64,000 bases of DNA. It comes from Vreelandella lionensis (lineage in GTDB: Bacteria; Pseudomonadota; Gammaproteobacteria; Pseudomonadales; Halomonadaceae). Position numbers and translations under genes: made by a program. Position 1 is the first letter of the stretch; every line of letters begins with the position of its first letter. Positions 6,725 to 46,575 of the stretch are shown piece after piece. Under the pieces are notes generated by a model that had not been told where the DNA came from, ran no database searches, and saw only the letters and a list, made by a program, of their open reading frames with translations. The stretch spans positions 1 through 64,000 of the forward strand of contig NZ_MWVI01000061.1 in assembly GCF_002087295.1 (NCBI RefSeq). Direction: 5' to 3'.

Positions 6725-8413
6725 CTATGCCAAGGCGCGCATATCTTCTTTATGATCGCGATCACTCGATTCAGCGCTTGCCATTGCCTGCCAATCCAAC
6801 TGCTCCAGAGGCTGCTCCGCCTCTTCGTCATCATGTACGTCAGGTACTGGGGCCTCCTCAACAATACGGAACTGCCCCGCATACTCACGCATCTGCAGCG
6901 CTTCTTGGGTTAACCCCTCGGCGCTTTGTGCCGTTTGGTTGACCAGGCGCATCGTATCTTGAGTCGTCGCGTCGATTTGCGTGACAGCAACGTTCACTTC
7001 TTCAATACCGCGACGCTGCTCTTCAGAGGCTTTGGCCATTTGAGCCATCAAGTGCTCAACCTGAGTCGCCGCTTGCATGATTGCCCGAGTGTGCTCGCCT
7101 GCCTGTTGAGAAAGTTCGCTACCCTGCTCAACGCTTTTACTGGAGGCCTCAATACGTGCACGAATATCGTGAGCAGCATCGGCACTGCGCGTTGCCAGCG
7201 CCCTAACTTCACTAGCCACTACAGCAAATCCGCGTCCATGCTCGCCAGCCCGCGCCGCCTCTACAGAGGCGTTCAATGCCAAAATATTGGTTTGGAACGC
7301 AATGCTTTCGATCACCTTGATAATGCTTTGAATTTCTTCGGAGTGCTCGTTGATAGACTGCATGGTGGCAATAAACTGAGCGATCACTTCATCGCCCTGC
7401 TGCGCTTTATGAGACACGTCGGTGGTAGAGCGATTTACATGCGCTGCGCTTTCCGCGTTTTGATTCACCGTCGCTGTGAGCTGCTCAAGGCTCGCGGCCA
7501 TCTGCTGAAGCGCCGATACTTGAGAATCGGTTTGTCCAGCCAACTGCTGGCTTTGTGTTGCCATGGCTTGGCTATCGCTATACACCTGCTGGCTGCTGTT
7601 ATTGAGGTGATTCACGGTGGTGGTTAACGAGCGCTGCATATTCGCCAGCTCGCTAAACAGCAGGCCAATTTCATTATTGGCGTGCGCTTCCACCGGGGAG
7701 GATAAATCGCCCTTGGCAATACGCTTGAAGTGTTGAGTAATAACCCGCAGCGGCCGCAGCACGTTACGACGTACCCCCCACACCACCACGCCTACCACCA
7801 GCAGCGCCAGCACGACGACCCCAACTACGCCCATGAAGAGCAGCGATGAGACGTTCTCGAAACGCTCAGACAAGCCAGCGCCACGGGCCACCGAATAGCC
7901 GTAAAACGCTTCTGCGGTGTTAACAAACTGCTGACTGCTATCATCAACCCGAGATTCGCCAGAAAGAAAGCCGCGCACATCGCGCTCTTCTAGCATCATC
8001 ATCTGCAGGCTAAGGTTGTTATTTACCAGGGATTGAAAATTGCTCGCCAACTGGCCGACCAGCTCGGGCTGCTCCCCCTCCGGAAAGCTCGCTTGGAAAG
8101 CTTCAAAATGCGTGGCCGCCGATGCCAGCAACCGATCCGACTCTTCCAGAAGCGGCTCTGGACGATCAAACGAGGGAGTGCGAATCAGCTCAGCTGCCCG
8201 ATTCATCTGTACCCTGGCACGCAACAGCTGTGTGTAAGCGCTATTTAGCTCGCGCACCTGAGCCATGTCGCGCTGCTGCATCGATGTAAAGGCATCGCGG
8301 CCAAACTGGTTGGCAAAAAGCCCTAAGCCACCAATGGCGAGCACAAGGCCAGTAAAAGTCACGAGTACCAGCGTCCAACTCGCCTTGACGCTTAAATTAT
8401 TGATAAATTTCAT
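6725..8413 (-). CDS. Methyl-accepting chemotaxis protein
   Basis: Transmembrane chemoreceptor of 562 residues. A short cytoplasmic N-terminus is followed by TM1 ([20 protein letters not shown]). Then come about 150 periplasmic residues predicted as a Tar-type four-helix bundle, TM2 ([20 protein letters not shown]), a HAMP domain with the LRPL motif, and the kinase-control hairpin with the tip sequence [34 protein letters not shown]. There is no NWETF-type CheR tether at the C-terminus. The start MKFINNL is preceded by GGGGTG. It lies 26 bp behind arsC on the same strand, so the two are probably co-transcribed. This suggests, without proving, a sensory role linked to arsenic or phosphate. Confidence 0.94.
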
Positions 8414-8439
8414 GGTGCACCCCGTCGAGATAGAAATGA

Positions 8440-8850
8440 TCAGCTTTTTTGCAGCGGTAGCCACAGCTGTAAACGTCGGCGGATCTCGAACAGCGCCTGC
8501 TCGTAAGCGTCCAACTTACTGATCAGACGAGGGTCACGGATGTCCCAGAATAGAATTTCGCCTGCTTTCCCTTGCCAATCGCGGCACGCCTGCTGAGCTT
8601 TGTCACACAGCACGATCACTACGTCGAACGTTTCGTTCTCGAACTGATCCAGCGACTTACTGTGCAGCCCATCTGTCGAAAGACCCTGCTTTTTTAAGGC
8701 TTCAAGGGTTAGCGCATGGGGCTCATCGGGTTCAGAGCCTGCACTGAAGGATTCGAAGCGATCACCGGCCATATGGCGAAGTAGCACTTCTCCCATGAGA
8801 GAGCGCGCAGAATTGGCATTACAGAGAAAGAGCACGCGACGCTTCGACAT
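8440..8850 (-). CDS. arsC: Arsenate reductase, thioredoxin-coupled (LMW-PTP fold)
   Basis: Reduces arsenate to arsenite. The 136-residue protein has the phosphatase P-loop C10-N-A-N-S-A-R16 and the two relay cysteines C82 and C89 (LCDKAQQAC), the same three positions used by the pI258-type ArsC. That supports thioredoxin coupling over a plain tyrosine phosphatase. The general-acid region reads WDIRDPR. It is transcribed away from arsH across the operator at 8938-8957 and is followed by the chemoreceptor gene. The window also holds a second, unrelated arsC of the glutaredoxin class at 11492. Confidence 0.92.
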
Positions 8851-8937
8851 AAATAAACAACCTCTTATTTAATTTTACAGCCCAACCATACACCCAGATG
8901 ATGACGGCAATATTGCAACCTGAACGGCCTGCTAGAA

Positions 8938-8957
8938 ATATACGATAAAACATATAT
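8938..8957. promoter_or_regulatory. Putative ArsR-type operator, left copy
   Basis: ATATACGATAAAACATATAT is an imperfect inverted repeat (arms ATATACGA / ACATATAT, 6 of 8 paired). It lies between the divergent arsC and arsH starts. It matches the site at 14544-14563 at 18 of 20 positions, so the same regulator probably binds both. No arsR gene is present in this window. Confidence 0.65.
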
Positions 8958-8998
8958 CATAAGTGTTATTGATCGCATTTACTCACTAAGGAGCCCTC

Positions 8999-9745
8999 AT
9001 GGCCCTACTTGAGGATTTACCCAACCTAGACCCTGCACTCTTCCGCACGCCCAGTCTAGACTCGTTAGGGCTGCCGTCCTCTACCAAACCTGCCCCTAAG
9101 ATTTTGCTGCTGTACGGATCCCTACGCTAGCGCTCATTTAGCCGCTTGGCGGTCGAAGAAGCCGCCCGCCTGCTGAACGCGATGGGCGCTGAAACACACA
9201 TTTTTAATCCGCGCGGCCTGCCGCTTCCTGATGCCGAAGATGCCGAAGATGCCGAAGATGCCGAAGATGCCAGCCATCCTAAGGTGGAAGAGCTGCGCTC
9301 CCTAGCACAGTGGGCAGATGGGATGGTGTGGTGCTCGCCAGAGCGTCACGGGGCGATGACAGGCATTATGAAAGCACAAATTGATTGGATACCCCTGGCG
9401 TTGGGCGGCGTACGCCCTACCCAAGGCAAAACCCTGGCCGTGATGCAGGTCTGCGGTGGTTCACAATCTTTTAACACGGTGAACCAGCTGCGCATTTTGG
9501 GCCGCTGGATGCGCATGGTGACGATCCCTAACCAATCGTCCGTACCCAAAGCCTTTATGGAGTTCGATGACAACGACCGCATGAAGCCATCGCCGTTTTA
9601 TGATCGCATCGTGGATGTCATGGAAGAACTCGTAAAATTCACTCTACTGGTACGAGAGCGCAGCGACCTGCTCACCGACCGATACTCAGAGCGTAAAGAG
9701 AGCGCCGAAGAGCTCTCCAAGCGCGTTAACCAGCGGGCCATCTAA
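8999..9745 (+). pseudogene. arsH: ArsH NADPH:FMN oxidoreductase with in-frame TAG
   Basis: ArsH oxidises trivalent organoarsenicals and reduces flavin. The full frame of 248 residues reads MALLEDLPNLDP, then KILLLYGSLR, then an amber codon at 9128-9130, then [15 protein letters not shown]. Family members have Glu (GSLRERS) at this codon, so GAG became TAG. The rest is intact, including [23 protein letters not shown] and [10 protein letters not shown] second peculiarity is four tandem 9-bp units (GATGCCGAA) at 9230-9265, which insert repeated Asp-Ala-Glu in the loop after PRGLPLP. AAGGAG precedes the ATG. It is first gene of the plus-strand ars run. A start after the stop would lose the flavin phosphate loop, so the protein is probably inactive if the stop is real. 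Confidence 0.9.
9230..9271 (+). repeat. 9-bp tandem repeat inside arsH
   Basis: Four perfect copies of GATGCCGAA plus GATGCC, encoding (Asp-Ala-Glu)n. The period is a multiple of three, so copy-number change would keep frame. Confidence 0.95.
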
Positions 9746-9758
9746 TCAAGGAGCGAGC

Positions 9759-10826
9759 ATGTCACATCAGGAGAAAGCAGCCCCCAGCAGTGCTGACATG
9801 GGGCTTTTCGAACGCTATCTGTCGCTTTGGGTCGCCGCGGCGATTGTGGCCGGTGTTGCGTTAGGCCAGTGGGCTCCCGCCATTCCCGAGGCTCTTTCAC
9901 ACTTTGAATACGCGCAGGTGTCGATCCCGATCGCCGTACTGATATGGGCGATGATTTTTCCCATGATGGCGCAAATTGACTTTAGCGCGATCGCTGGCGT
10001 GCGCCGCCAGCCAAAAGGGCTGGCCATCACCACCACGGTGAACTGGCTCATCAAACCCTTCACCATGTTTGCCCTGGCATGGCTATTTTTTATGGTGATT
10101 TTTAAACCTTGGATCCCTGATGCGCTGGCCAGCCAGTACCTTGCGGGGGCCATTTTGCTGGGCGCTGCGCCCTGCACGGCGATGGTCTTCGTCTGGAGCT
10201 ACCTAACGCGGGGCGATGCGGCCTATACGCTGGTACAAGTCGCCCTCAACGACCTCATCATGCTGTTTGCCTTTGCGCCGATCGTTGTCTTGCTGCTGGG
10301 TATTTCCAATATTCAGGTACCCTGGGATACGGTGCTACTGTCGGTAGTGCTCTACATCGTCATTCCCCTGGCGGCAGGCTACCTCACGAGGAAAACCCTT
10401 ATCGCTAAGCGCGGTGCCCAGTGGTACGACAACGTCTTTATGAAGCGCATTGGCCCGGTCACGCCGATGGGTCTGATCATTACGCTGGTCCTGCTTTTCG
10501 CGTTTCAAGGCGATGTCATTCTGAACAATCCACTGCATATCGTATTGATCGCCATTCCGCTAATTCTGCAGACGTTTTTGATCTTCTTCATTGCCTATGG
10601 CTGGGCGAAAGCGTGGCGCGTGCCGCACACTATTGCTGCACCTGGGGCGATGATTGGTGCCAGCAACTTTTTTGAGCTTGCCGTGGCCGCCGCCATTGCG
10701 CTGTTTGGCCTGCAATCGGGCGCTGCTCTAGCAACGGTGGTGGGTGTACTGGTAGAGGTACCGCTGATGCTGGCCCTGGTGCGCATTGCCAATAACACGC
10801 GTCAGCACTTCCCTACTCATGCTTAA
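9759..10826 (+). CDS. acr3: ACR3-family arsenite efflux permease
   Basis: Ten-helix membrane transporter that exports As(OH)3 or arsenite in exchange for protons. The 355-residue length and sequence fit bacterial ACR3, including the conserved Cys in GAAPCTAMVFVWSYLTRGDAAYT (Cys and following helix), which is needed for transport in characterised members. Also seen are NWLIKPFTMF, the motif VQVALNDLIML and GASNFFELAVA. AAGGAGCGAGC lies upstream of the ATG, 13 bp after arsH stops. It is often named arsB in annotations, although it is unrelated to the classical ArsB family. Confidence 0.95.
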   Translation: MSHQEKAAPSSADMGLFERYLSLWVAAAIVAGVALGQWAPAIPEALSHFEYAQVSIPIAVLIWAMIFPMMAQIDFSAIAGVRRQPKGLAITTTVNWLIKPFTMFALAWLFFMVIFKPWIPDALASQYLAGAILLGAAPCTAMVFVWSYLTRGDAAYTLVQVALNDLIMLFAFAPIVVLLLGISNIQVPWDTVLLSVVLYIVIPLAAGYLTRKTLIAKRGAQWYDNVFMKRIGPVTPMGLIITLVLLFAFQGDVILNNPLHIVLIAIPLILQTFLIFFIAYGWAKAWRVPHTIAAPGAMIGASNFFELAVAAAIALFGLQSGAALATVVGVLVEVPLMLALVRIANNTRQHFPTHA

Positions 10827-11492: not shown

Positions 11493-11899
11493 TGTCAGTC
11501 ACTATCTACCACAACCCCAACTGCGGCACATCGCGCAACACGCTGGCCATGATCAAAGCCTCAGGGGAAGATCCTGACGTGATCCACTACCTGGAAACGC
11601 CGCCCAGCCGAGAGCGGTTGGTAGCGCTGCTGGCGATGATGAAGCTGCCACCGCGAGAACTGCTGCGCCGCAAAGGCACGCCTTACGATGAGCTCACATT
11701 GGATGACCCTACGTTAAGCGATGATCAGCTTATCGACGTCATGCTGGCACATCCGATCCTCATCAATCGCCCTATCGTTATCACACCCAAAGGCGCAAAA
11801 CTCTGCCGACCTTCCGAACAGGTATTGGCGCTGCTGAAGCGGCCAGTGGCGCACTTTGTGAAAGAGGATGGTGAGCATGTTGACTACCCACCCACGTAA
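11492..11899 (+). CDS. arsC: Arsenate reductase, glutaredoxin-coupled
   Basis: Reduces arsenate with glutathione and glutaredoxin. The 135-residue protein has the catalytic Cys11 in NPNCGTSRNT and the arginines expected for oxyanion binding in LLRRKGTPYDEL, INRPIVI and CRPSEQVL. The fold is that of the E. coli R773 ArsC class, unrelated to the LMW-PTP ArsC at 8440. It starts at the ATG overlapping the preceding stop. Having both reductase classes in one island gives two electron sources for the same reaction. Confidence 0.94.
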   Translation: MSVTIYHNPNCGTSRNTLAMIKASGEDPDVIHYLETPPSRERLVALLAMMKLPPRELLRRKGTPYDELTLDDPTLSDDQLIDVMLAHPILINRPIVITPKGAKLCRPSEQVLALLKRPVAHFVKEDGEHVDYPPT

Positions 11900-11916
11900 G
11901 AGGCGCTCAAGAAGCG

Positions 11917-12213
11917 ATGGACCCGATCATTGAAATAGAAGAAAAAGCTGCCGCTTTTATCAAGCAACAAGGGGGCGTGGTCACGGTACGGTTTTCACCC
12001 CGTCACGGCTGCTGCGGAGGCACGTCGCGCATCGCCATCGCCGAGACGTCTGCCCCCAAAGAGACCTCAACGTTTGAATGCCACCAGCTGCAAGGAGCGA
12101 CGCTCTGGATAGCCCCGGAGCTTACCCATCAGGGCTTACGACTCCGGGTGGAAGGGTGGTGGAAGCTGCAGCGGCTATTCGTCGATGGTGCCCCGCTACG
12201 CGCTGGGCACTAG
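11917..12213 (+). CDS. CC/Se-motif family small protein
   Basis: A 98-residue protein with vicinal cysteines C32-C33 in RHGCCGGTSRIAIAE. This matches the small family annotated elsewhere as CC/Se motif (seleno)proteins, in which one Cys can be selenocysteine; here both codons are ordinary Cys (TGC TGC). There is no signal peptide or membrane helix. It is the last gene of the plus-strand ars run, 17 bp after arsC. Adjacent thiols beside arsenate reductase suggest binding or transfer of trivalent arsenic. That is inference; no function has been established to my knowledge. Confidence 0.75.
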   Translation: MDPIIEIEEKAAAFIKQQGGVVTVRFSPRHGCCGGTSRIAIAETSAPKETSTFECHQLQGATLWIAPELTHQGLRLRVEGWWKLQRLFVDGAPLRAGH

Positions 12214-12251
12214 GACACGCCCGCGCCGTGAATCGGCATGGTGCACATCGC

Positions 12252-13475
12252 TCACGCTGCCTGCTTAGGCAATGCAAGGGCCATCATAGAGCTTGCCGCC
12301 ACCAAGGCAGCCGCCACCCAAAGGCAGGCACTCAGGCCGTATTCCATGTAGAGCCACCCGGAGAGCAGCGTGCCGACCAAGCGCCCCATGGCATTGGCCA
12401 TATAGTAAAACCCTACGTCCATCGAGACGCCGTCAGCGCGGGCATAGTGAACGATCAGATAACTGTGCCAACTGCAGTTCACGGCAAACAGCACGCCAAA
12501 CGCCAACAGGCCCACCACCAGCCAGCCCACCTGCGCCAAGGGAAGTAGCGCTAGCACAATGGCCAAAACGGCCAGGGCGGCGGCCCAGCCAGCGGTGATG
12601 GTTCTCGCATCGCCTTTTAGTAAGGCAGTGAGCTTCGGCGCTTGGGTTTGCACTCCGCCGTACCCAATAATCCAAGCCGCTAATAGACCGCCCACGGTCC
12701 AGTGGCTCCAGCCGTGCTGATCATAAAGAAAGACCGGCAGCGCCACGACAAACCACACATCACGAGAAGCAAACAGACAAAACCGCGCGGCAGAGAGCAC
12801 GTTGATAGCACGGGATTTTGAAAAGATCTCGGAGAACTTGGGTGTGACTTTTTGCTTGCCCAAATCCGCCTTGAGGCGCCAGAGCGATAGTAGCAGCACA
12901 GCACCCAGCATGATGGCCATGGCAATGACCGCCCCACGAAAGCCAATCAGCGTGAGCAGCACACCGCCAACAAAAAAGCCCAGGCCTTTCAGGGCATTTT
13001 TAGAGCCGGTCAACATAGCGACCCAGCGGTATAAGGCGCTGTTGGCATTGGCACTCGTGGCCGGCACCAGCACCTTCACGGCGCTTTTAGCGCTCATTTT
13101 ATTGAGGTCTTTGGCAATGCCCGACAGCGCCTGGGCGGCCATTACCCACACAACGGTCAACATACCAGCAGGGACCATTAGCATGGCGAGCGCCACAATT
13201 TGCAGCCCTAGCCCCACATTCATAGTGCGGTTCAAGCCCAGTCTCGCCCCTAGCCAGCCGCCCACCAAGTTCGTTACCACACCAAACGCTTCATAGAACA
13301 GAAACAGCATGGCGATTTGCAGCGGCGAGTAGCCGAGCTGGTGGAAATACATTACCACCAGCATCCGCAGCGCCCCGTCGGTAATGGTGAACGCCCAGTA
13401 GTTGCCGGTAATCAGCATGTACTGGCGCACCTCGAACGGTAGCGCCCTGACTTTATCCAGCAGCGATTCAGCCAC
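12252..13475 (-). CDS. arsJ: ArsJ organoarsenical efflux transporter
   Basis: MFS permease of about 407 residues with 12 predicted helices. The hallmark opening is [24 protein letters not shown], with [19 protein letters not shown] after it. ArsJ exports 1-arseno-3-phosphoglycerate made by the partner GAPDH, completing an arsenate-specific efflux route. The gene directly follows and overlaps the GAPDH gene. I prefer the GTG at 13475, which is just inside the GAPDH stop region with GGGGAG upstream; a GTG at 13493 is also possible. It converges on the CC/Se gene. Confidence 0.92.
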
Positions 13476-14499
13476 GGCCAACCGGCTCCCCACCCACCAT
13501 ACGTGCCAGCTCGGCGGTACGATTGGCGTAACCCCACTCGTTGTCGTACCACGCGTAGAGCTTTAACTGAGTGCCGTTCACCACCATGGTAGAGAGGGCA
13601 TCAATAATTGAGCTGCGCGGGTCGGTGCGGTAGTCGATCGATACCAGCGGGCGCTCTTCATAGCCCAGAATGCCTTTGAGGGGGCCATCGGCGGCAGCCT
13701 TGAGCACTTGATTCACCTCCTCGACGGTCACTTCCCGCTCAAGCTCGAACACCATATCGGTGAGAGATGCGTTAGCCAGCGGTACGCGAATCGCGTGGCC
13801 GTTTAGCTTGCCTTCAAGCTCAGGAAAAATCGCCGTAATGGCTTTCGCTGAGCCCGTGGTGGTGGGGATTAGGCTCATACCGCAGGCGCGGGCCCGGCGC
13901 AGGTCTTTGTGGGGTGCATCCAAAATGGTTTGGGTATTGGTAATGTCATGCACGGTGGTCATGGAACCGTGACGAATACCAAAATGCTCAAGAATCACTT
14001 TGACGACCGGCGCTAGGCAGTTAGTGGTGCAGCTAGCGGCCGTGACAATACGGTGCTTGGCTGGCTCAAACAGGTGGTCGTTCACACCCACCACCACATT
14101 GAGCACGCCCTCCTCTTTCACCGGCGCACTCACCACTACGCGCCCAACGCCTTGATCCAGGTAGGCCTGTAGCTTGTCGGTACTTTTCATTTTACCAGAG
14201 CACTCGATGACCACATCGCAGCCCGACCAGTCGCTCTCTACAATGGTTTGATGGGCACTAAAGGCCACCTCATGACCATCAATGACAATAGCATCCTGAC
14301 GCGCCGTCATGCCCTGCCCTGGCATCCATTGGCCGTGGACGGAATCAAACTCCAATAAATGGGCAAAGGTGGCCGCATCACCACCAGGGTCGTTAATACG
14401 CACCAACGCCACCTCGCCTGCCGCCACCTGCGGCCAAAGGCTGCGCAGCGCTAAACGTCCAATACGGCCAAATCCGTTAATACCGATGCGAAGTGACAT
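13468..14499 (-). CDS. ArsJ-associated glyceraldehyde-3-phosphate dehydrogenase
   Basis: A 343-residue GAPDH with the NAD loop [10 protein letters not shown] and the catalytic Cys157 in [11 protein letters not shown]. In ars operons this enzyme uses arsenate in place of phosphate, giving 1-arseno-3-phosphoglycerate for export by ArsJ. Position immediately before arsJ, with overlap, identifies it as this paralogue and not the glycolytic enzyme. Start MSLRIGIN has GGAGGG upstream. The operator-like palindrome at 14544-14563 lies 45 bp before it. Confidence 0.93.
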
Positions 14500-33292: not shown

Positions 33293-33354
33293 AATACCCC
33301 TCATGTGGGTGGAAGCACCCGACGTTGATTTCCCGTTATGGTACCTATCAATTT

Positions 33355-35426
33355 ATGAAAGCACAGCCTGGTATGCACGAAGGCTCGCCCGTAGCGCGCT
33401 ATTATCGCGCCGATGACCCTGAATGGCACTGGTTAGAAGACCGCGAAAGCGCTGATGTCAGCGATTTCCTTACCGCAGCTAACCAGCAGCATGCCGACTG
33501 GTTTGCACCGCTCTCGCCCCTGGCGGACACCCTCTACCACTCGCATTTAGCGCGCCGTGAATTGGCGGTGAAAAGCTTAGAGACAGCGCTTGACCACTTT
33601 ACGTTCTGGAGCGAGACCGGCGCGGAAGATGATTACCACTGCTGGTGGCGTTACCCCAACGGCCAACCTGAGCAAAAAAGCTGCTTTTTAGACGTTCGCG
33701 CGCGCGCTGCCGAGCAGCCATTCTACGATATGGGAGATATGGCGCTCTCCCCGGATGAGCAGTGGCTCGCCTGGACCGAAGATACCCAGGGCGACGAACG
33801 CTTCACACTCTGGTTAAAAGCACTGCCAAACGGCACGCCGCGCCAACTGCTTAGCGATATCGGCCCCAGCGTTTGCTGGGCAGAGGACCAAAACGCTGAC
33901 GGCGCCACGCTGCTGTTTACCCGTTTCGACGATACCCAGCGCCCTGACAGCTTATGGCGTTTATGGGTCGCGTTCGCAGAACATGTGCCCATGCAAACAC
34001 CGAACCTGGTGTTACGCGAGGCAGACCCAGAGTTTTGGGTAGGCGTGGGTAAAACGCGCTCTAAAGCGTGGTTGATCATCGAGAGCGGCTCAAAAGACAC
34101 TACCGAAGTTCTCGCCCTGCCTGCCGATCAGCCCGAAACACCCCTCATTTGCCTGCATGCCCGCGAGCCGGGTGTGGAAGTCAGCATTGATCATCGGCCA
34201 GGAGTCTTTTATCGCCTGCACAACCAGACGGGCCCTCACTTTCAGCTGGATATGCGCGCCGAAAGCGATAACACCAGTTGGCAGCCGCTGATTGCGCATC
34301 GCGATGACGCTACGCTTGAGGGGGTTGATGCATTTGAGTGGGGCTTAATACTCGCTGAGAGAAGCCATCAGGATGCGCAGGTACTGTTGCGGCGCTTGGA
34401 GCTGGATAGCCACCATCAAACGCTGCTTGATAGTTACATTGACCTGCCCGAAACGCCCTGCTCACAGCTGCTGGAAGACTCGCCACACTTTAATGCGCGC
34501 ACGCTGCACCTGCGCGAAGAGTCGTTTACCCACCCACCGAGCTGGTATGCCTTAGACCTCGATAGCGGTGTACGTACGCTGTTAAAACAGGTGCCCGTTC
34601 ACGGCAACTTGGCACCTGAACAGTTAGTTAGCCGCAGAGTATGGGCCACCAGCCACGATGGCGAGCAAGTCCCGGTATCGGTGGTCATGCGAGCAGATTT
34701 GGCAGACCAGCCACTGCCCACCCTGTTATACGGTTACGGTGCTTACGGTGAAGCGCTGGACCCCTGGTTTTCTATTGCCCGCCTAGAGCTACTGGAGCGC
34801 GGCGTGGCCTTTGCTGTGGCCCATGTGCGCGGCGGCGGTGAGCGCGGCGAACCGTGGTACTTAGCAGGCAAGATGGCTCATAAAGAGAACAGCTTTCACG
34901 ACTTTTTAGCCGCCCGTGAAGCGCTTGTGGCCACCCATATCAGCCAGCCTGAGCGGATAGTCGCCTGCGGTGCCAGTGCAGGCGGGTTGCTGGTGGGTAC
35001 GTGCATCAACCGTGCGCCGGAGGCCTTCTGCGCGGCGGGTTGGATGTGCCTTTCCTAGATGTGCTGCGCACCATGCAGAACCCAGAGCTGCCGCTCACCA
35101 CCGCCGAGTACACCGAGTGGGGTAATCCTGAAGCACCCGATGTGGCTGAACGCATCGCCGGTTATTCACCTATCGATAACATCCGCTCGCAGCGCTACCC
35201 AGCGCTTTGGATTGAGGGTAGTTGGTTCGATACCCGCGTTAGCTACTGGGAACCCGCTAAATTCTACGCCCGAGTGAGCCAGGCACAGCAAGGGGCTGCG
35301 CCTATTCTGCTGCATACCGATATGAGCAGCGGCCACGGCGGCGCATCGGGAAGGTTTAAGGCGTGGCGCGATACGGCCCGCCAGGATGCGTTTATTCTGT
35401 GGGCGCTAGGGTTAGCGGAGGCGTAG
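33355..35426 (+). pseudogene. Protease II-type prolyl oligopeptidase (S9A), frameshifted
   Basis: Serine peptidase of about 690 residues that cleaves short peptides after basic residues if it follows E. coli PtrB. The N-terminal beta-propeller is followed by the alpha/beta hydrolase domain with YGYGAYG, HVRGGGERG and the nucleophile Ser in GASAGGLLVG. After a frame break at about 35037-35042 come LDVPFLDVLRTM, the Asp region SWFDTRVSYWEP and the His in SSGHGGASGR. One base appears lost in CGGCGGGTTGG. All three catalytic residues are present once the frame is joined. The first in-frame ATG is at 33355; an upstream TTG at 33325 is an alternative. The 3' end overlaps the convergent heme oxygenase gene by 35 bp. 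Confidence 0.9.
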
Positions 35427-36006
35427 CCGTCGCTGGCAGAGAGTCCGTTAACGCCTTAGTAAAACCACTAAACGCTTGCTGTGCGCCCCGCAATATCTGG
35501 GGCCATGAACCCGATGGGCAAATGGCCTCGGCAAAGCGCCAAAAACCCGCCCACCCGGCGGGTGTTAGCGGCGTCTCGGTAAAGAATCGGCAGGGAATCT
35601 GTTCACCAAGGCAGCGTTTGGCGTGTCGGCCTATCACTTCGCCTCCCAGGCGAGAACCTTCTAGCACGTATAACATGCCTACCATTTCATAAACGCTAGC
35701 TGGCACTGCAAAACACCATGCAGGCAGCAACGGCTGATTTAACTGCGTTAGATCGTGACGTAATAGCGGCTCACGCAGCGTCAGTGCATAGCGGCTGTTG
35801 CGCTTCTCTATGGCTTGACTTAACGCATTCTCAAGCCCCGCTGTGGCAGGATATAAGCAAGCTAGCGCTGCGCCGTAGGTAGCCATAGTCACGTCGGGAC
35901 GTAGAAGAGCCCTCAATGCTGGATGATGATCCACCCGATGATGGTCTGCTTGTGTTTCCTGTTTTAACCAGTAGGCCAGCGTGACGGAAGAATCACTCTC
36001 CATCAT
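35392..36006 (-). CDS. bphO: Heme oxygenase (biliverdin-producing, BphO-like)
   Basis: Cleaves heme to biliverdin, the chromophore of bacteriophytochromes. The 204-residue protein has the heme-oxygenase helical fold. The proximal His is probably in TQADHHRVDHHPALRAL, and the distal-helix motif VGMLYVLEGSRLGGEVIGR has the conserved Gly-rich kink. It begins inside the last codons of the phytochrome gene (ATG within GGAATGATGGAGAG), so the two are translationally coupled. This partnership of chromophore maker and photoreceptor is well known for BphO-BphP pairs. Its 3' end overlaps the peptidase gene by 35 bp. Confidence 0.92.
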   Translation of the reverse strand: MMESDSSVTLAYWLKQETQADHHRVDHHPALRALLRPDVTMATYGAALACLYPATAGLENALSQAIEKRNSRYALTLREPLLRHDLTQLNQPLLPAWCFAVPASVYEMVGMLYVLEGSRLGGEVIGRHAKRCLGEQIPCRFFTETPLTPAGWAGFWRFAEAICPSGSWPQILRGAQQAFSGFTKALTDSLPATATPPLTLAPTE

Positions 36007-37481
36007 TCCTCCATGGCATACTTTTCGCCTGCTGCAGTAAGGTACGTAACTTCAACAAATAGAGCCGAGTGCTCGCTGACCAAGGTCGGCTATAGCCAAC
36101 TCGTTGCTCAATCCAGGATTCAAATGGAGCGTCTTGGCGAAACCGTCCTACTACCTTCCCGGTAGTCAACGGGCTTATCAGGGTTACCGCCCCAAACCAC
36201 TTCGTAAAGATGTTCAACACGGCATAGGTAAAGATTGACGAAATGGTGCTGATCTAATGGCAAATCACTGATTAGAGCCACACCGGCCACCTCACTCAAT
36301 GGCATATCGCTACAATCACGCCGCAAGCAATCACTGATCCATACATTAGAGGACGCCTGAGCCGCCTGTTGCGCCACTATCTGCATTACATTGGGCGTCA
36401 AACCAACCCCTTTCTGATAATACTCACCACCCAGTTGCAACATCACTCCATCTGCTGCAACCGTCTCCATTAACGACGCGCTGAGCTCGTCCCAGGCACT
36501 CTCAAGCTCGCCGTGGCGCATCAATACAGCTTTCGCATGGTCAAAATAGTGCTGAAGACCATCGATAACATCCAGGCGTCTGCGCGCTTTATAATCACGT
36601 AAGCGCAGCTTAAATCCCTCACTTAGCGAACGCATGGCCTGCAACTGGCTAACGGTGAGCTGCCGAGGCTGTGCACAGTGGCAGGAAATCAACGCATCCA
36701 ACTCTCCCGCTTGAATAATCGGTAGAGAAATCGCCCCACTCACGCCCATATTGGCCATATATTCCAAGTGAACGGGTGAAACGCTGCGCAAATCGACATA
36801 ACTTAAGTCAGGCGTTACATTGGCCTCTGCCGCGAAAATAGGTACTGGCGCAGCAGTAGCGTCTGGAATGGTTCGCCACGGGTTCTTTAGATAAAGTTCG
36901 CGAGCAATATAGGGAATGTCGCTCGCCGGAAAGCGCAGCCCTTGATAGCTTCCTGTCACTCCCTCCCGGCGGGCCTCCGCCAGCACTTCACCATCACCTT
37001 CAGGCATGAAGCGGTAATAGAGCACCCGATCAAAACCACTCAGCGTTAATAGTGCCTCTATAAGTGACTGGCACTGCTCTGCCAGCTCATCCGCGCTTAC
37101 TGGCACTGGAATAACGCCATTAAGCATCGCCATGGGGTCTGGGTGAGTTTCCACCGGATAGAGCTCATACACCCATCCGCCCTCATTGGGCGTGACCACC
37201 ACATCAAATTCTTGCTGTGGGCTATCGCACTGGCCCACATAACGCCCACCAGGGGGTAACGCAGGCAGCACCGAGGCAATGTCGCGCAGCATCGCTGGCA
37301 AAAACTGGCCAAGTGAAACGCTGTCAGCAGCATCGTCCAGTAGCGTTTTACAGTTGGCGGAAAGGTGCGTAACGATGCCTGATGAATCGGTTATGATCAG
37401 TGCACCGTGGGGCTGAATAGCCCCAGATAGGTGGAGCTCTTCCTGCTCGCACTGATGTATAAAACCACGGGGTTGGTCCAT
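35993..37481 (-). pseudogene. bphP: Bacteriophytochrome photosensory core (PAS-GAF-PHY only), frameshift in PHY
   Basis: Red/far-red photoreceptor. PAS: Cys11 (HQCEQEELHLSGAIQPHGAL), the usual biliverdin attachment position. GAF: PASDIPYIARELYLKNPWR and SPVHLEYMANMGVSGAISL, the chromophore pocket. PHY: VWGGNPDKPV and the tongue motif PRRSF. The tongue is split by one extra base at about 36125; removing it joins SPRRS to FESWIEQRVGYSRPW and gives about 495 residues. The protein then ends after the last PHY helix (LRTLLQQAKSMPWRNDGE): no histidine kinase, GGDEF or other output domain is encoded. It starts at the ATG overlapping the stop of the CheB-CheR-GGDEF-EAL gene (TAATG) and is followed by bphO. 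Light output probably passes to the neighbouring protein (inference). Confidence 0.9.
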
Positions 37482-40400
37482 TAAGTCGCATCCTGCGGGT
37501 GGTATTCGGTATTACTACCATTGACGGAAATTAAAGCGGCAAAATCAGCCAGCGCTAGTGGTATGGACAGCAAATAGCCTTGAACAAAGTCGCAGCCGTT
37601 TTCAACTAGCCAAGTAAGCTGCGCCTGCGTCTCGACCCCTTCGCCAACAGTACAAATACCGAGTGCTTTTGCCATCCCTAAAATAGCTAGGGCAATCGCT
37701 TGATCTCCTTCATCTTTTCCGCCTAACCCATCAACAAAACTTTTATCAATTTTCAATTCTGCCAAGGGCAAGCGTTTCAAGTACGCCAGCGACGAGTAGC
37801 CGGTACCAAAATCATCTACCGCTAGCTTGATACCTGCTTCGCGCAATTTTTCGATGTTGCCAAGCGCTGCACTGGAGCGATCTACCAAAGTACTTTCGGT
37901 GATTTCAACCTGCACCAGCGAGTGCGGTACTCGATATTGCTTCAAGCAATTAAAAAGATGCGTCACAAACCGCTCTTCCTGAAAACTACGCGCTGAGACA
38001 TTCATAGCAATAGGCGGTGGGTTGAGCCCCTCATCTCGCCATGCGGCTAACTGGCGTATCAATAGCAGGGCTACATAGCGGTCGAGTTCCAGTAGCAACC
38101 CAGTGGCCTCGGCAACGGGAATAAAATCGGCGGGACTCACTGCGCCCAAGACCGGGTCGTTCCAACGCAATAGCGCTTTCGCGCCAGAGAGTCGCTGCTC
38201 AGACACGCAAGAAAATTTAAGTTGGTACACTAACCGTCACCGTTTGTTCTCCCTGCCTTCACGCAGCGCCTGCTCAATGGCTACATCGCGCATTAAACGT
38301 GCTTGAAGCTCGGGCTTGAACAGCTCAAAACGGTCACGGCCGTTCTCTTTGGCCCGATACATGGCAGTATCAGCTGCTTTGGTCAGCCCTGCTACGTCAT
38401 CACCATCATCAGGGCAAAACGCCAAACCAATGCTGGAAGTCACAAACAACGCATGTCGACGAACATCAAAGGGTTTTGAGAGCGCTTCCACAATGCGCTT
38501 GGCAACCTGCTCCGCACCTTCGATGGTGGTATCCACGAGAATAATCGTGAACTCGTCTCCCCCCAGGCGAGCCACGGTATCCATATCGCGCACTAATTCC
38601 TTTAACCGGCTTGCCACCTGAATTAAAAGTTCGTCGCCAACGTCATGCCCTAAGGTATCGTTGATGCTTTTGAAGTTATCCAGGTCAAGAAACATCAATG
38701 CGCTTAGTTGCTCACTACGCTTTGCATGAGCAATCACAACCTGCAAACGGTCCTGAAACAAGGTGCGATTAGGCAACCCAGTGAAAGCATCATGGGTAGC
38801 CAGATATTCGGCTTGGCGTTGAGACTCTTTAATATGTGTAATATCTGAAAAAACAGCCACATAAAGTGCATCATCATGGCTATCGGGTGCAATAATGTTA
38901 AGCGTTAACCATTGCGAAAAGAGCGTCCCATCACGACGTTTGTTGAAGACCTCACCCTGCCAATAGCCGTGTTGCTGTACGACATCCCATAAGACATAGC
39001 AAGTTTCAGGAGTTTGACCTCCTCCTTGGTTCTCTTCATCACAGTACAATAGGGGAAGTGCAGGTTGCCCCTCCACTTCACTAGCAAGAAACCCCGTAAT
39101 GCGACTAAAAGCGTTGTTGACCGATTGCGCCTCACCCAGGGCATTGATCACAACAATCGCTTCTCCAGCCTGCTCAAATACTTTGGCTGCCACTTGCATA
39201 TCCCGCTCAGCGTGCTTACGCGCGGTGATATCCTCTGACTCGGTCAGAATCAAGTAAGGGTGGCCTTGTTCATCACGAAGCACTTGGTGTACACACGACA
39301 TAATACGCAAGCCACCACCCTCGCTTGGTAGCAGGTGTTCTGCCTTGACTATCTGCTGATAGCGAAGTGCTTCTAGATCCCGCGACCACACTGAACCTGC
39401 ATAGGCGTCAGGAAATAACTCAAATACATTCCGCCCAATGAGCTGCTCCTGGGTTAGCCCAAACGTGTTCAAAAACTGGGGATTCGCAAAAGTATATCGT
39501 CCGTTAAGATCTTTCAGCGCAATCATCACCGTGCTGCTTTCCATCAGCGCATGCAACTGTGCCTGGGACTGGCGGAGCTTGGCCTGTACCTGGCTAAGGT
39601 CGGTAACGTCCATTAAAGTGACGACTAATAATTCAACATCTCCATGTTGATTAACTCCAGGTGTAATCAGCCGCTGGAGCAGCCTCCCATCAAGCTCGAG
39701 GATGTTCTCATCTGGCGTTGCCTGATGTGCTACCTGGATCAACGCGTCCTCTAAATCGTTAAGGACAGCAGGCAGTCTAAGCCCAGAGACATGACGCTGT
39801 AATGCCGTCGGGCGAACGCTGAAGTAGCGCGCCGCTGGAGCGTTATAGCGTTTGAGACAAAATTCGTTATCGAATACAAGCAGCGGAAAATCTAGCGCAT
39901 CATAGAGATAGGCATATTCATCATTTAGCTTAGTGAGCTCGCCAGTCTTAATATTAAGCTCTTCATTAAGGCTGATTAGCTCCTCATTGGTGGCCTGCAA
40001 CTCTTCATTGGCAGCCTCTAGCTCTTCGTTAGTTGCCTGCAATTCCTCATTGGAAGCCTGCGCCTCTTCATTGAGTGACTGCATTTCTTCATTGGCCGTC
40101 GCCAACTCTTCAATGAGCGACTGCAAGTGCTCTCGAGTAGCCTCCAACTCCTCCTCAAGGCTCTCAAGACCATCAAGTTGCGGCGGCTCCATGAGCTGGT
40201 CTAATGGCACGTTGGTGGGCTTTTCACTCTCTAAAAGTGGCGACAATACTACCAATATTCGTCGGTCATCTTCTTGCTCAGTGAGCCCCCGCACACTCAA
40301 ACGCCACCACTCGCCCTCATAGCGTCGACGCCGCCCTAGCTGAGGTATCCGTTGCTTTTGGAACTGGTGAAGCAGGGACATTAGCTCGCCACGAAAGGGG

Positions 40401-42035
40401 GCACTCATGACGTCCTGAATGCCTACTTGGGTGCGGCCTGCAGGAAAACGTAAAAAGCGCTCCACATCTCCTGCCGTATGCTGAACATTGCCGCGCGCAT
40501 CGCACAGTGCAACGGTGGCGCCCATATGGGCCACTAGCGCATCAAGCAGTTGCTGCATATCCCGATCACGCCGTTTTAAGGGCGAGGCGGCCCGCTGGGC
40601 AACCGGAGCATGTTCATTGAGTTCTCGACTTTCGCCCTGCTTGGTAAATAAGCGCTCACGTCGATCTAGTGGGGTAAACAGCGTCTCAGAGCGACCAACA
40701 CTCTCGGAGCGCCCCAAAAAGAGAACACCCGTGACTCGCAGCCCAAAATGAAAACGCTGTAGCACTTTCGTCTGAAGTTCATGATCGAAATAGATCAATA
40801 CATTGCGGCAGGTAATCAGGTTTAAGCGCAAAAACGGCGGGTCATCAAAAAGATTGTGTTTAGCAAACACAATCATATCGCGTAGGATTTTGTTGGCTTC
40901 AAAGGTGTGATCATTCTTTACAAAGTAACGCTCTAGCATAGGCTTGAGCAGCGCCTCTAGGGCTGCGCCGAGATAACCGGCCTCTACGAGCGATTTCCAG
41001 CGCGTCTTCATCAATATCAGTGGCAAAAATCTGTACAACCACTTGGCTGCTTAAAATACGCTTTGCCTCAGCGATCATTAGCGCAATCGAGTAGGCCTCC
41101 TCCCCAGTTGCACAACCCGCCACCCAGATTCTCAAAGGCGTGTTGTCCACCTGCTCGACCATATGGCGTACCGCTTTTTCAAGCGCTTCAAACGCGCTAA
41201 TATCACGAAAAAAGGCGGTAACCGATATGAGAATGTCGCGGCCTAGCTGCTCAAGTTCAGCAGGTTCACTTTCAGCTAAGGCAAGATACTGATTCATATC
41301 CGTAACATTTGTTGCTATCAAACGACGGCGTATACGTCGGCTTAAGGTACCCTGCTTATAGCCAGAAAAGTCCAGTTGACGACGCTCTTTTAGCAGCTCA
41401 AGTAGCCGCCTTGGTACCTCAATCTGATTGCCTTCAAGGCTGGCGCATTCAAGCCGGGCAAGCTTGGCCAAGCGTGACGCCATTTCTTCAACATTTAAAA
41501 TGTAATCAATAACTCCTGCGTCTATTGCAGACTGAGGCATCCCATCATATTTAGCACTTTCAGGCGTCTGCACCATGGTCACGCCGCCCGCCGCTAGAAT
41601 AGCCCGTAAACCTGCAGTGCCATCCGACCCGGTTCCTGACAGGACAATACCCACCGAGGCCTCATGAGCATCAGTGGCTAATGACACAAAGAAATCATTG
41701 ATTGAAGGCTTCGGCACTACATGCGGCAAGGCGGGTGTTGTGTAAAACACGCCCTCTTTTATAGTGGCATTGGTATTAGCAGGTACTACATAAATAACCC
41801 CTGCTTCAGGGCGCTGGAGGCTTTCAAGCCGTGTTACCCGTAGCTGGGTTTCACGGCTAAGAATATCCACTAGCATACTCTTATGGGTAGGCGAGACATG
41901 CTGCAGCACTACATACGCCACCGGCAATGCGGGATCAAGCGGACGAATCAATTTCGAGATAGCTTCGAGCCCGCCAGCAGAGGCGCCTATTCCCACCACC
42001 AATGGCGAAACGGAGGCAGAGGTTGCAGCAGTCAT
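37481..42035 (-). pseudogene. CheB-CheR-PAS-GGDEF-EAL composite signalling protein, frameshift and in-frame TGA
   Basis: About 1517 residues when joined. Order: CheB methylesterase (IGASAGGLEA, SGTGSDGTAG); CheR methyltransferase (VAGCATGEEAYSIA, FATDIDE, NLITCRNVLIYF); a long Glu/Asn-rich coiled coil (repeated TNEEL); three PAS domains; GGDEF (ARLGGDEF) followed by an EAL domain. One extra C/G at about 40979-40982 breaks CheR between IARRG and GYLGAALEALLKP. A TGA at 38237-38239 separates GGDEF from EAL in the same frame. The EAL signature itself is KAL (GAKALLRW), while NVSA, VEITES, DDFGTGYSSL, LKIDKSF, GEGVET and VQGYL are kept; loss of that Glu should weaken or abolish phosphodiesterase activity. 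No transmembrane helix. The ATG at 42035 has AAAGGAA upstream. The stop overlaps bphP. Confidence 0.88.
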
Positions 42036-42530: not shown

Positions 42531-45500
42531 ATGGATGCACACAACCGTGAGTTAGCACTTCAGACAGGCCTGCTGATGCTACTGACCACCACCGTTATTA
42601 TCGGTGGTGCTAGCCTTGTATTCAGCGTGACACCAAGTCTGCCGCAACCCCAGGCACTGGCCGTGTTGCCCGACAGCTCACTGGTTATCCTTTTATGTGG
42701 CTTAGGGCTTAGTTCGGTCATGGCTAATTTGCCCAAGTGGCGCCGGGCATCCAGCGTTTGTTTAGCCCTCTTGGCTTTTTATACCTTGGTGCATAATGTA
42801 ATAGATGCAGGAACCGGGCACTCCTGGTTGACCGGTCAGCCCCGTCTGCCTTCCCAGGCAGTACCCACTCTCATTCTTGCTGCATTCTGTTTATGGGTCG
42901 GCCCTCAAGGCCAGTGGCAGCATCGTGTATGGCAGTTCGGGGGCGGTTTTTTGTGGCTGATCGGCACTATTACACTGGCTTATCATGCCGGAGCCAAATT
43001 ACCCAGCTGGCTACCTCGTGCGAGTGCATTACTCCCAGGGCTGCTCTGCTTCTCGTTTGGCTTGGCCATGGTCATGGTAAGCCGTAGAGTACCCCGACTT
43101 ACCTCTTCGCTTAGCAAGTCCGCAGTCACGGCAGGGATTATTGGCGTCAGCCTAAGCATGAGTGGCTGGTTTTTAATCAGCTGGAACCAGCACGAAACAA
43201 CACGTTTAGAAGCTCAACATTCACTGGAAAGCGTGACAACCAGCATTGAGCGCACGCTTAATTCACGGGCAATTGTCCTTGAACGCTTAGCAGAGCGTTG
43301 GCAAGAAGTGTTTGAGGATGAGGAGTCACGCCAGCGAGAGGTAGCACGTTACTGGAGTGATTACCCTAGTATCTTAGCGCTCGCCTACTTTAACCCTATC
43401 ACTAGGGATACTTGGCGGCGTGCTCAGCAGGGTCAAGATCTACTATGGCTTGATGACCAGTTGGTTAGCTTACCCGTACTGCGCTGGCTGAACCAACAGC
43501 AGCAATCTACACAATGGTTGCTCCCTGACCCATCGCGCCCTGAATTAGCCCTACTCGCCCTAAAGCCTTCTAATGCGCAGCGTTATCAGCTCGTCGCAGT
43601 CATTAATCTTGCTCGCCTAGTCACAAGTGAAGCCAGCATTGCAGAACAGGCATTCAGCGTTGCATATTAGCCACCACGGCGGCCACTTAGTCACTGAAGA
43701 CGGAGAGCTAACTCCGCATAGCAAGCTGCCAGAAGGGACGCCATTAAGCGAGCAGCACCTTGTTCTTCCTGGTGGGACCACACTGCACTTAAGCCTTATG
43801 CCACGCGTAGATTCGACCTTTGATCTCGCCAATTTTATTGCGGCAGGAGTAGGGCTTTCTGGACTGCTACTGACCTATCAATTAGTGCTTAGCCTTGCTT
43901 TGATGGCTGCACGTACACAGCGCTCGCTGGAGCTTGCGAAAGCAAAGGAAGCACTTGAAGACCAGCACCGAATCCAGGCGATGATCGCTCGGGACGAACC
44001 CTGCAGCGCCACTTTATTGCAGATTTGTCGTCTACTTGAGCAACAAGGCAAGCAGGTACATGTCGCTATTTGGCGCTTAGATCATACAGCCACTTACCGA
44101 GTCGAACTGCTCTCCTGCACCCTCCCATTTGCCCTTCAGGAGTCGATGCCGTTTAACGAAAGCGCTATCTCTCTAGCAACCGAGCTACACCAGCAAGGTT
44201 TAGTGGAAACGACGCTATCACTGACAGACAGCCCAGCGGTCACTGCCTTTGAAAAACTTGCCTATCAGCATGGTTATACCCAAGCGACTCTCCATGTACT
44301 CAATAGTAGCGAAACGCTACCGCTTGGCACCGTAGCGCTGTTAACTAAAGAAGCATCAAACCAACCGCACACCGCCGACGATATTGAGCCCACCCTGCTA
44401 CCAAGCGCATTAAGGTTGATGCGTCTAGCCATAGAGCGCCATAACCATCAACAGACACTACAGGATAGCGAGCAACGCTTTAGGTCACTGTTTACCCAAA
44501 ACCCTGATGGCGTATTTTCGCTGGATATTGATGGCTATTTTCAAAGCGTGAATCAATCACTGCTGACGCTACTCGCCATTAGCGAAGCCGATATTATTGG
44601 CAGTCATTTGTACACCATGGTGCCCACCGAACAATGTGAGGCTATCAATGACGCCTTTAGCCACGCATTAACGGGTATCGCCCAACGGTTTGAAATTGAA
44701 ATAGCCAGCCGGTCAGGCGACCTACATTACGTCGATATCTCATTTTTACCCACTGTGGTAATGGATAATGTTGTAGGTGTGTATGGTGTAGTGAAGGAGA
44801 TGACCGCGTTGCGCCATAACGAGGCACAGCTACGTATTTTTCAGCGCAGCTTAGAAGCAAGCAGCAACGGTGTACTGATTTGTGAAGCACGATCAGATGA
44901 TTTTCCGATCATCTACGTTAACCCTGCTTTTGTAGAGATTACCGGCTACGAGTTAGAAGAAGTACAAAACCGCAACTGCCGTTTTCTGCAAGGCCCAGAT
45001 ACAGACCCTGCTCAGATCAACGACATTCGCCAAGCCCTTGTTCAGCAGCGCGATATCAGCTTGACCATTCGTAACTACCGCAAAGATGGACGCGCCTTCT
45101 GGAACAATGTGTTTATTTCACCTGTACGGGCTAACGATGGTCACGCCACCCACTTTGTAGGCGTTATTAACGATATTTCAGAATATAAAGATCATGAAAA
45201 TGAGTGGGCTTTTCACGCCACCCACGATGCTTTGACTGGGCTTGGCAATCGCGCGCTTTTTGAAGACCGCTTACAACACGATGTAGATTTGGCAAGACGC
45301 CATCACCAACAGCTAGCGGTGTTGTTTATTGATTTGGACGAATTTAAACCTATCAATGACACTCTCGGTCATGCTGTCGGTGACCAAGTCTTGATTCATG
45401 TGGCAAGACGTTTAGAGGAAGCCATCCGCCCTTCCGATACGCTGTGTCGCTTTGGTGGCGACGAGTTTGTACTGCTACTGCCCGATTTAGATGATCCTCA

Positions 45501-46575
45501 CCATGCTCAGGAAGTTGCTGAACGCCTGCTGCTGGAGCTGGCACAACCCTATCGCATTGACCGTCATGAATTATATCTTTCTGCCAGTATCGGCATTGCG
45601 TTAAGTGATGAAGCGCTTGAAAATCCAGCGGCCCTGCTACAGCAGGCGGATATGGCGATGTATAAAGCCAAGCAGCAAGGCCGCAATACGCTGCAAACCT
45701 TTACCTACGACATTAATCAAAAACTCACCCAGCGGGTAACATTGCGCAATGATTTACAAGAGGCCATTACTCAAGAGCAGTTTGAACTGCACTACCAGCC
45801 GCTACTAACCCGCGATGGTGACATACACGGCTTCGAGGCGTTAGTCCGTTGGAACCACCCCGTCAAAGGCCGCATTTCACCTGGGCTCTTTATTCCGATT
45901 GCCGAAGAGACGGGGCAGATCATTGGCTTAAGCCAGTGGGTAATGGAGCGCGCTGCCAAAGATTTTTTAAAGCTACAGCCACTACTACCCAATCATTGTC
46001 GAATGGCGGTAAATCTTTCTCCGATGCAGTTTCATCGTCCCAGCTTTTTAAGCTCGTTACGCAAAACCCTTGAGGTCACCGGCTTACCTCCCACGGCGCT
46101 GGAGCTTGAGCTCACCGAGGGTATTTTAATGAATGACACCGAGGCGGCTATTGATACGCTCCATGCACTGCGCGGCATGGGGATCAGTATTGCCATTGAT
46201 GATTTTGGCACTGGGTTTTCCAGTCTGAGCTATCTGCGCCATCTACCCATCGACAAAATCAAAATAGATCGCAGCTTTATCTTGAATATTGTCGAAAGCA
46301 GCAAGGATGCGGCGGTCGTACATGGGATTATTGCACTGGCGCATCACCTGGAACTGAACGTGGTAGCCGAAGGCGGAGAAACCAGCGCGCAGCAGCAACA
46401 CCTCCTGGCACTGAATTGCGATGTACTGCAAGGCTTCTTATTTGCCAACCCCCTGCCCTTTGAGCCTCTGACCCACTGGTTAGCAGTACAGCAGCAAAAC
46501 GCGCTTTCACACAGCCACCAATACAACCACTCGCAGCGCCAAGGCGCTGCTTTTTTTACGCCATTTATTTTATGA
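42531..46575 (+). pseudogene. Membrane LOV-PAS-GGDEF-EAL protein, single-base frameshift
   Basis: About 1347 residues when joined. The N-terminus has about seven hydrophobic helices (MASE-like, family not recognised), an extracytoplasmic CHASE-like stretch of about 160 residues, another helix (AAGVGLSGLLLTYQLVLSLALM), a GAF-like segment, a PAS domain (RFRSLFTQNPDGVFSLD), a LOV domain, GGDEF (CRFGGDEF) and EAL (GFEALVRW, LELELTEG, AIDDFGTGFSSL, KIKIDRSF, LQGFLF). The LOV domain has the flavin-cysteine motif NRNCRFLQGPDTD plus NYRKDG and FWNN, but FVGVIND where canonical LOV domains have FVGxQxD (Gln to Ile). Both enzymatic domains look complete. The frame breaks at about 43661, where removing one G gives AFSVHISHHGG. 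Divergent from the phytochrome operon. Confidence 0.88.
46533..46557 (+). terminator. Terminator inside the 3' end of the LOV-GGDEF-EAL frame
   Basis: GCAGCGCC-AA-GGCGCTGC is followed by seven T. It lies before the stop codon, so the last 14 residues (GAAFFTPFIL end) are encoded by the terminator itself. The native stop may have been slightly upstream. Confidence 0.85.

Follow-up and report, generated by a model that had tools for sequence, protein, structure and literature searches.

The window analysed here, a stretch of 64,000 nucleotides of Vreelandella lionensis (contig NZ_MWVI01000061.1, positions 1 to 64,000), carries on its minus strand three adjoining genes: one for a composite protein with CheB, CheR, PAS, GGDEF and EAL domains, one for a bacteriophytochrome (BphP) that stops after PAS-GAF-PHY and has no output domain, and one for heme oxygenase. 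This order, proposed in an earlier note on the DNA, was confirmed by Pfam. The composite begins with CheB and the start of CheR at 40911..42035 (CheB_methylest, CheR_N, CheR), continues with the end of CheR, the PAS domains, a long helix and GGDEF at 38237..41038 (CheR, PAS_10, PAS_4, PAS_9, GGDEF), and ends with the EAL piece, the phosphodiesterase for cyclic dimeric GMP (c-di-GMP), at 37481..38230 (E 4.9e-61). The main frame of the BphP occupies 36120..37481 (PAS_2, GAF, PHY), and heme oxygenase lies at 35392..36006 (PF01126, E 1.2e-6). One base, 37481, is common to the stop of the composite and the start of the BphP. The photosensory core has the features of a bacteriophytochrome: PAS-GAF-PHY, an N-terminal Cys (residue 11, the candidate biliverdin ligand), the DIP motif, the chromophore His and the PRxSF tongue.

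The earlier note had treated the three genes as intact, and here it must be corrected. The composite spans three open reading frames (ORFs), with a frame change near 40975, crossed by CheR, and an in-frame TGA at 38237..38239, the single internal stop in a one-frame match to the composite of V. lutescens; overall, the match to that protein takes two frames and one internal stop. The EAL piece downstream of this stop reads KAL where the composites of relatives read EAL in 62 of 62 cases. The BphP likewise needs two frames: its ORF leaves the PHY frame near 36124, and a tail of 43 residues, matching residues 454-496 of the V. lutescens BphP, continues in another frame (35996..36124), which would overlap the heme-oxygenase start (36006) by 11 bases.

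The same operon is found in related genomes. Among 82 genomes of the genus, a BphP at 47% identity or more is present in 14, the window genome included, and the long CheB-CheR composite occurs in the same 14, in pieces in two of them (the window, and G017 at contig ends). Loci were fetched for all 13 other carriers, and in 13 of 13 the order composite, BphP, heme oxygenase is kept, as the earlier note had expected; the three genes also adjoin far outside the genus. The composite is a single ORF of 1426-1523 residues in 12 of these 13, so that CheB_methylest and CheR lie in one chain, and the thirteenth copy (G017) is cut by a contig end. The BphP is a single ORF of 484-548 residues in 12 of 13 and is in two pieces in G048. 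None of the 14 close orthologs has a fused output, which upholds the note's view of the BphP; within the genus, fused outputs (GGDEF or long open frames) are seen only among distant BphP paralogs of about 25-35% identity, one of which, the BphP-GGDEF of locus L046, is likewise adjoined by heme oxygenase. Five further genus genomes (G055, G003, G068, G076, G074) lack this BphP and encode CheB-CheR proteins that are shorter or partial. A set of 275 genomes of the family added two carriers of the same operon, G215 and G253.

A wider scan of contigs was made with an alignment of 14 output-less BphPs; loci were chosen by BphP similarity alone, the best 80 of 363 relatives were kept, and neighbours were annotated with domain models built for this analysis. 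Of these 80 BphPs, 76 have no output domain and end just after PHY, unlike histidine-kinase phytochromes, in which the kinase is fused to the BphP; three are fused (L141-L143), and one was not scored (L094, in which no whole BphP ORF was called and which adjoins CheB-CheR and GGDEF-EAL pieces). A CheR-PAS-GGDEF-EAL protein on the same strand stands beside 58 of the 76. CheB was called in 55 of these 58 linked loci; the exceptions are L078 and two composites truncated at contig ends (L103, L137). The composite lies upstream of the BphP in 57 of the 58 and downstream in L113. When each ORF is taken to start at its first start codon, 35 of the 57 upstream composites overlap the BphP ORF, and 56 either overlap it or lie within 100 bases. 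In the 58 linked loci the BphP ends 1-18 residues past the end of the PHY model, so the absence of an output domain is genuine. In 39 of the 58, the gene immediately after the BphP encodes heme oxygenase. A heme-oxygenase search in ten genomes was positive in eight, and among seven positive genomes chosen for having none directly after the BphP, five encode the enzyme elsewhere. The scan and the genus counts are not independent, because at least nine of the 58 linked loci come from genus-set genomes (L065-L072 and L074; L073 and L095 are G215 and G253), and some scan records are doubtfully labelled (metagenome-assembled genomes named Mycobacterium, Leptospiraceae and Klebsiella).

The other 18 output-less BphPs fall into six groups: a split composite (L098, L099, L111), a composite with GGDEF and no EAL in frame (L097), a partial composite at a contig edge (L115), a contig edge beside the BphP (L082, L084, L102), a partner with kinase output (L114, L126, L134, L140, L144), and no recognised partner. 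The kinases are separate ORFs; in L114 the partner ends in HisKA-HATPase-REC and its CheB-CheR part groups with those of the GGDEF-EAL composites; here the output differs, and BphP and CheB-CheR are retained. In four Chromatiaceae a PAS-kinase-REC-Hpt protein follows the BphP. Among 399 genomes of the family of L130, a BphP above threshold was found in 59, and in two of these it is output-less as judged by open-frame length, one being frame-broken. Two variants of the heme-oxygenase arrangement were also observed: L114 carries a second BphP of 931 residues fused to heme oxygenase directly after the output-less BphP (11507-14302), and in L126 the output-less BphP is preceded by an ORF of 637 residues (7916-9829) whose C-terminal end is heme oxygenase.

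In a BphP tree drawn by a quick method from a set selected by similarity to output-less queries, with fused proteins from few families added, the 79 output-less BphPs lie on one side of a branch and the 26 fused ones on the other (Shimodaira-Hasegawa-like approximate likelihood-ratio support 99); within this set the output-less BphPs form one clade. In a CheB-CheR tree of 80 rows, five changes between linked and unlinked proteins were counted; L044 and L094 are labelled as not linked there although both are linked, solely since no whole BphP was called in either. Pairwise distances in the BphP and CheB-CheR trees correlate with r 0.67 over 65 loci, against a maximum of 0.15 in 1000 permutations, and with r 0.83 over 60 loci when five long or odd rows are removed.

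Key residues were examined in 62 composites (the 58 linked loci with L034, L038, L040 and L044) and 61 BphPs. The tested positions of CheR, GGDEF and EAL are invariant in all 62 composites, and the I-site Arg is kept in 61; the window copy departs from its relatives by its KAL and the stop before it. CheB retains Ser in 58, His in 59 and Asp in 57, gaps being counted as misses; the misses are of three kinds: gaps where the ORF is cut or short (L103, L137, L078), one anomalous residue at the edge of a contig (L066), and altered residues in L073, L074 and L078. In the BphPs, the Cys, Asp, both His, Arg, Tyr and Trp are invariant in 61 of 61, the Ile of DIP is found in 59 and the Ser of PRxSF in 60. 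In L073 and L074 the CheB key residues are lost or changed and the CheR residues kept, and the helix repeat described below is also reduced.

Pfam recognises CheB, CheR_N, CheR, several PAS domains, GGDEF and EAL in the composites. The closest solved relatives by sequence are solved CheR proteins for the CheR part, many BphP cores for the BphP, and, for GGDEF-EAL, 5m3c and the motility regulator 4rnh (E about 1e-110). Residues 462-835 of the V. lutescens composite were modelled with AlphaFold from 22 alignment rows (mean predicted local distance difference test score, pLDDT, 82.8; predicted template modelling score 0.42). The model places an extra PAS-like fold after CheR (residues 25-140 of the stretch, mapped to 40232..40579 of the window, minus strand), then a single helix of 89 residues (model residues 164-252, with a block pLDDT of 87-96 from residue 171 on; window 39896..40162, minus strand), then the next PAS. 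Pfam did not call the extra fold, although the stretch was not searched alone. In Foldseek the modelled stretch aligns with multi-PAS proteins (WalK, DosP, FixL), with a large root-mean-square deviation over both PAS folds, and the VIA-align rows cover mostly the second PAS of the model. Eighteen of the 24 invariant columns of the alignment fall in the helix, and repeat counts locate heptads of the type EELxA[ST]N inside it, at 39989-40069 on the minus strand.

From this gene content and order, their conservation and co-occurrence, and the conserved key residues, we infer that the operon probably encodes a split photoreceptor, in which a stand-alone red/far-red BphP steers a bifunctional GGDEF-EAL enzyme in trans and light sets the level of c-di-GMP. 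Heme oxygenase would make biliverdin, the chromophore of the BphP; the BphP would bind it at the N-terminal cysteine and, by a photochemistry presumed for the source strain, switch with red and far-red light. The switched protein may then contact the neighbouring composite through its PAS and long-helix region and shift the balance between the GGDEF cyclase and the EAL phosphodiesterase, so that light, in whichever direction it acts, would set c-di-GMP. The fused CheR and CheB would add a layer of methylation, on the composite's own helix or on a chemoreceptor. Signalling in trans is supported by the five loci in which the partner carries a kinase output.

For the methylation step, a self-adapting sensor can be imagined, in which glutamates of the 89-residue helix gain and lose methyl groups through the fused CheR and CheB, which would reset the light signal passed to GGDEF-EAL; chemoreceptors adapt by methylation in the same way, and the composite would do so inside one c-di-GMP enzyme. 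Such a sensor is quite improbable. The short motif [EQ][EQ]xxA[ST], which we take to be a methylation motif, occurs at least twice in heptad spacing in 57 of 70 CheR ORFs; of 747 other ORFs, one shows such a cluster, and it is a methyl-accepting chemotaxis protein (MCP). The full consensus of the methyl-accepting helix of chemoreceptors, [ASTG][ASTG]xx[EQ][EQ]xx[ASTG][ASTG] (PMC6829392, PMC6391922), speaks against methylation of the composite's own helix: at least one match occurs in 9 of 70 CheR ORFs, 25 of 734 others and 5 of 13 MCP-like ORFs, and heptad pairs of such matches were found in none of the 70. By the published consensus, the helix would thus not belong to the methyl-accepting type. 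When three of the four consensus positions are required, heptad pairs appear in 68 of 70 CheR ORFs and 4 of 734 others; since they appear in only 2 of 13 MCP-like ORFs, this relaxed form fails to pick out real chemoreceptors. A low-complexity coiled coil would give heptad spacing anyway, and the shuffle controls for the motif do not preserve heptads. In the 420 residues that follow CheR, several unlinked CheB-CheR proteins contain at most one strict match. Own-helix methylation thus appears weakened as judged from these motif counts. Of the 46 loci in which the gene directly upstream of the composite is readable, 5 have a Pfam-confirmed MCP gene at that place and on the composite's strand (V. 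lutescens, V. massiliensis, H. salicampi, Nitrincola tapanii and a betaproteobacterial metagenome-assembled genome), a figure with no background rate behind it; a chemoreceptor is therefore an alternative substrate of CheR and CheB.

These upstream MCP genes also bear on two other accounts of the operon. The BphP might act on other partners, kinases or chemoreceptors, and its place next to the composite would then reflect no more than a shared link to light and co-transcription. The five kinase-output neighbours and the five BphPs with no recognised partner fit this, as do the MCP genes with the reservation just given; it is nevertheless clearly unlikely, as one composite-type partner recurs beside 58 of 76 BphPs, nearly always overlapping or within 100 bases, and L114 keeps CheB-CheR and BphP with a different output. 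Alternatively, the composite might mainly tune chemotaxis, with CheR and CheB modifying chemoreceptors, the BphP adding light dependence and c-di-GMP being secondary. The invariance of the tested CheR residues and the five MCP genes agree with such a role, which is very improbable in view of the equal invariance of the GGDEF and EAL residues, the lack of any MCP motif in the fetched stretch of 49 of 58 loci, and the loss or alteration of CheB key residues in L074, L073 and L078 while the operon persists. Decay into pseudogenes without function, suggested by the in-frame stop, the two frame changes and the KAL of the window copy, is unlikely too. Ten ORFs of the V. lutescens locus (L065) were compared and nine matched in the window; five of the nine are broken there (the composite, the BphP, a flanking GGDEF-EAL gene, a flanking gene matching ORF 33325-35058, and a 557-residue gene further off), three are whole, and the heme-oxygenase match has one stop in a possibly non-coding upstream extension. 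Because three of the five broken genes sit outside the operon, a poor draft sequence (the source genome has a completeness of 80% and 100 contigs) is the more probable cause; in 11 of 13 relatives, moreover, composite and BphP are both whole, a contig end cutting one composite and one BphP being split.

Several observations weigh against the split photoreceptor itself. Agreement of the BphP and CheB-CheR trees is also expected from plain co-inheritance. No partner was recognised for 5 of the 76 output-less BphPs (L100, L101, L110, L136, L139), Pfam having been run on one neighbour each of L110, L136 and L139 only. In the family set, G216, G243 and G228 have long CheB-CheR-GGDEF-EAL proteins and no output-less BphP within the fetched stretch (loci L157, L158 and L159). 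No natural BphP-composite fusion was seen in the scans of the genus, the family (275 genomes) and the L130 family (399 genomes); a 981-residue frame in G633 holds part of a frame-broken BphP. Other possibilities were also discarded: chance adjacency of BphP and composite, by their co-occurrence in the same 14 genus genomes and the linkage in 58 of 76; a BphP shortened by sequence error, as the window ORF does leave its frame, yet intact relatives also have no output; and membership of the fused PadC family, by the BphP ends 1-18 residues after the PHY model.

Some further arrangements were noted in the course of this work. Both genes flanking the operon in the window (33325-35426 and 42531-46575) are split between frames. 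A second PHY locus of the source genome, on contig 100, is a degenerate BphP-GGDEF with several broken frames, in which the usual N-terminal Cys motif was not seen on inspection by eye; distant relatives with about 670-710 residues are frequently found within the genus. A passage of PMC9587094 mentions a PadC of Halomonas meridiana that lacks every essential motif. In G216 (L157:1-2018), a fused BphP-GGDEF ORF lies about 5 kb from the CheB-CheR-PAS-GGDEF-EAL protein that has no adjoining output-less BphP. CheB-CheR-PAS proteins of about 850 residues without BphP follow a gene of roughly 200 residues in L060-L062 (with PAS in L060), and in L164, L162 and L063 CheB-CheR and PAS-GGDEF-EAL form split gene pairs, also without BphP. 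In G633 (L185), two 533-residue ORFs on opposite strands, perhaps insertion sequence copies, lie between a composite piece and the frame-broken BphP.

The components of this operon type have known counterparts. CheB/CheR fusion proteins, presumably KEGG K13924, likewise join CheB to CheR and then PAS; the proteins of the present subset terminate in GGDEF-EAL, with an output-less BphP linked to them. Cph2-Slr1143 and H-NOX with a GGDEF-EAL partner are further sensors that act in trans; like PixD, they are sensors of other kinds and are not known to involve CheB-CheR. MorA-type GGDEF-EAL enzymes carry other sensor parts. To these enzymes belong the closest solved relatives of the composite GGDEF-EAL by sequence (PDB 4rnh; also 5m3c). 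PixD, named in PMC4053972, likewise has no output and works with a separate signalling protein. In PadC and PadC-EAL proteins (IsPadC, BphG1; passages of PMC9587094), a biliverdin-binding BphP core is also coupled to GGDEF or GGDEF-EAL, but in one chain with a coiled-coil linker, whereas here two genes are involved and the enzyme adds CheB, CheR and several PAS domains. In Erythrobacter flavus, the bacteriophytochrome BPHP-15570 likewise activates a separate diguanylate cyclase, DGC-0450, and raises c-di-GMP, but that protein contains kinase and REC domains of its own and reportedly works by phosphorylation (passages of PMC12172448), while the BphP described here has no kinase.

An output-less BphP with heme oxygenase was already in print in 2013: Cenrod_2641 and Cenrod_2642 of 'Candidatus Symbiobacter mobilis', in an apparent operon, with a 710/754 nm photocycle and a working heme oxygenase, the BphP being said to group with Methylomicrobium (passages of PMC4053972). 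The printed reverse primer of Cenrod_2641 decodes to the end NLLRWL, the last six residues in 5 of 61 BphP tails (L117, L119, L121, L122, L127), and this C-terminal match makes it a likely member of the family. Neither the primers nor the genome were found among the loci of this analysis. The term CheB does not occur in the available text of that paper. Among the matches listed for the open-licence literature, judged by titles, abstract starts and selected passages, none dealt with a CheB-CheR protein together with a phytochrome, and the passages of PMC4618731, PMC5907407, PMC2577667, PMC8396549 and PMC8846402 hold nothing on this combination. The operon type is real and widespread, and no description of it was found in that literature.

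Most known routes from phytochrome to c-di-GMP run within a fused chain or pass through a kinase. The output-less phytochromes described here form a clade that retains a single type of separate partner in Alpha-, Beta- and Gammaproteobacteria; some members adjoin a kinase in its place. Such an operon would offer a natural two-protein red-light switch, a candidate type of partner for the output-less BphP that has been implicated in how 'Chlorochromatium aggregatum' senses light, and a setting in which to study the roles of CheB-CheR fusion proteins outside chemotaxis.

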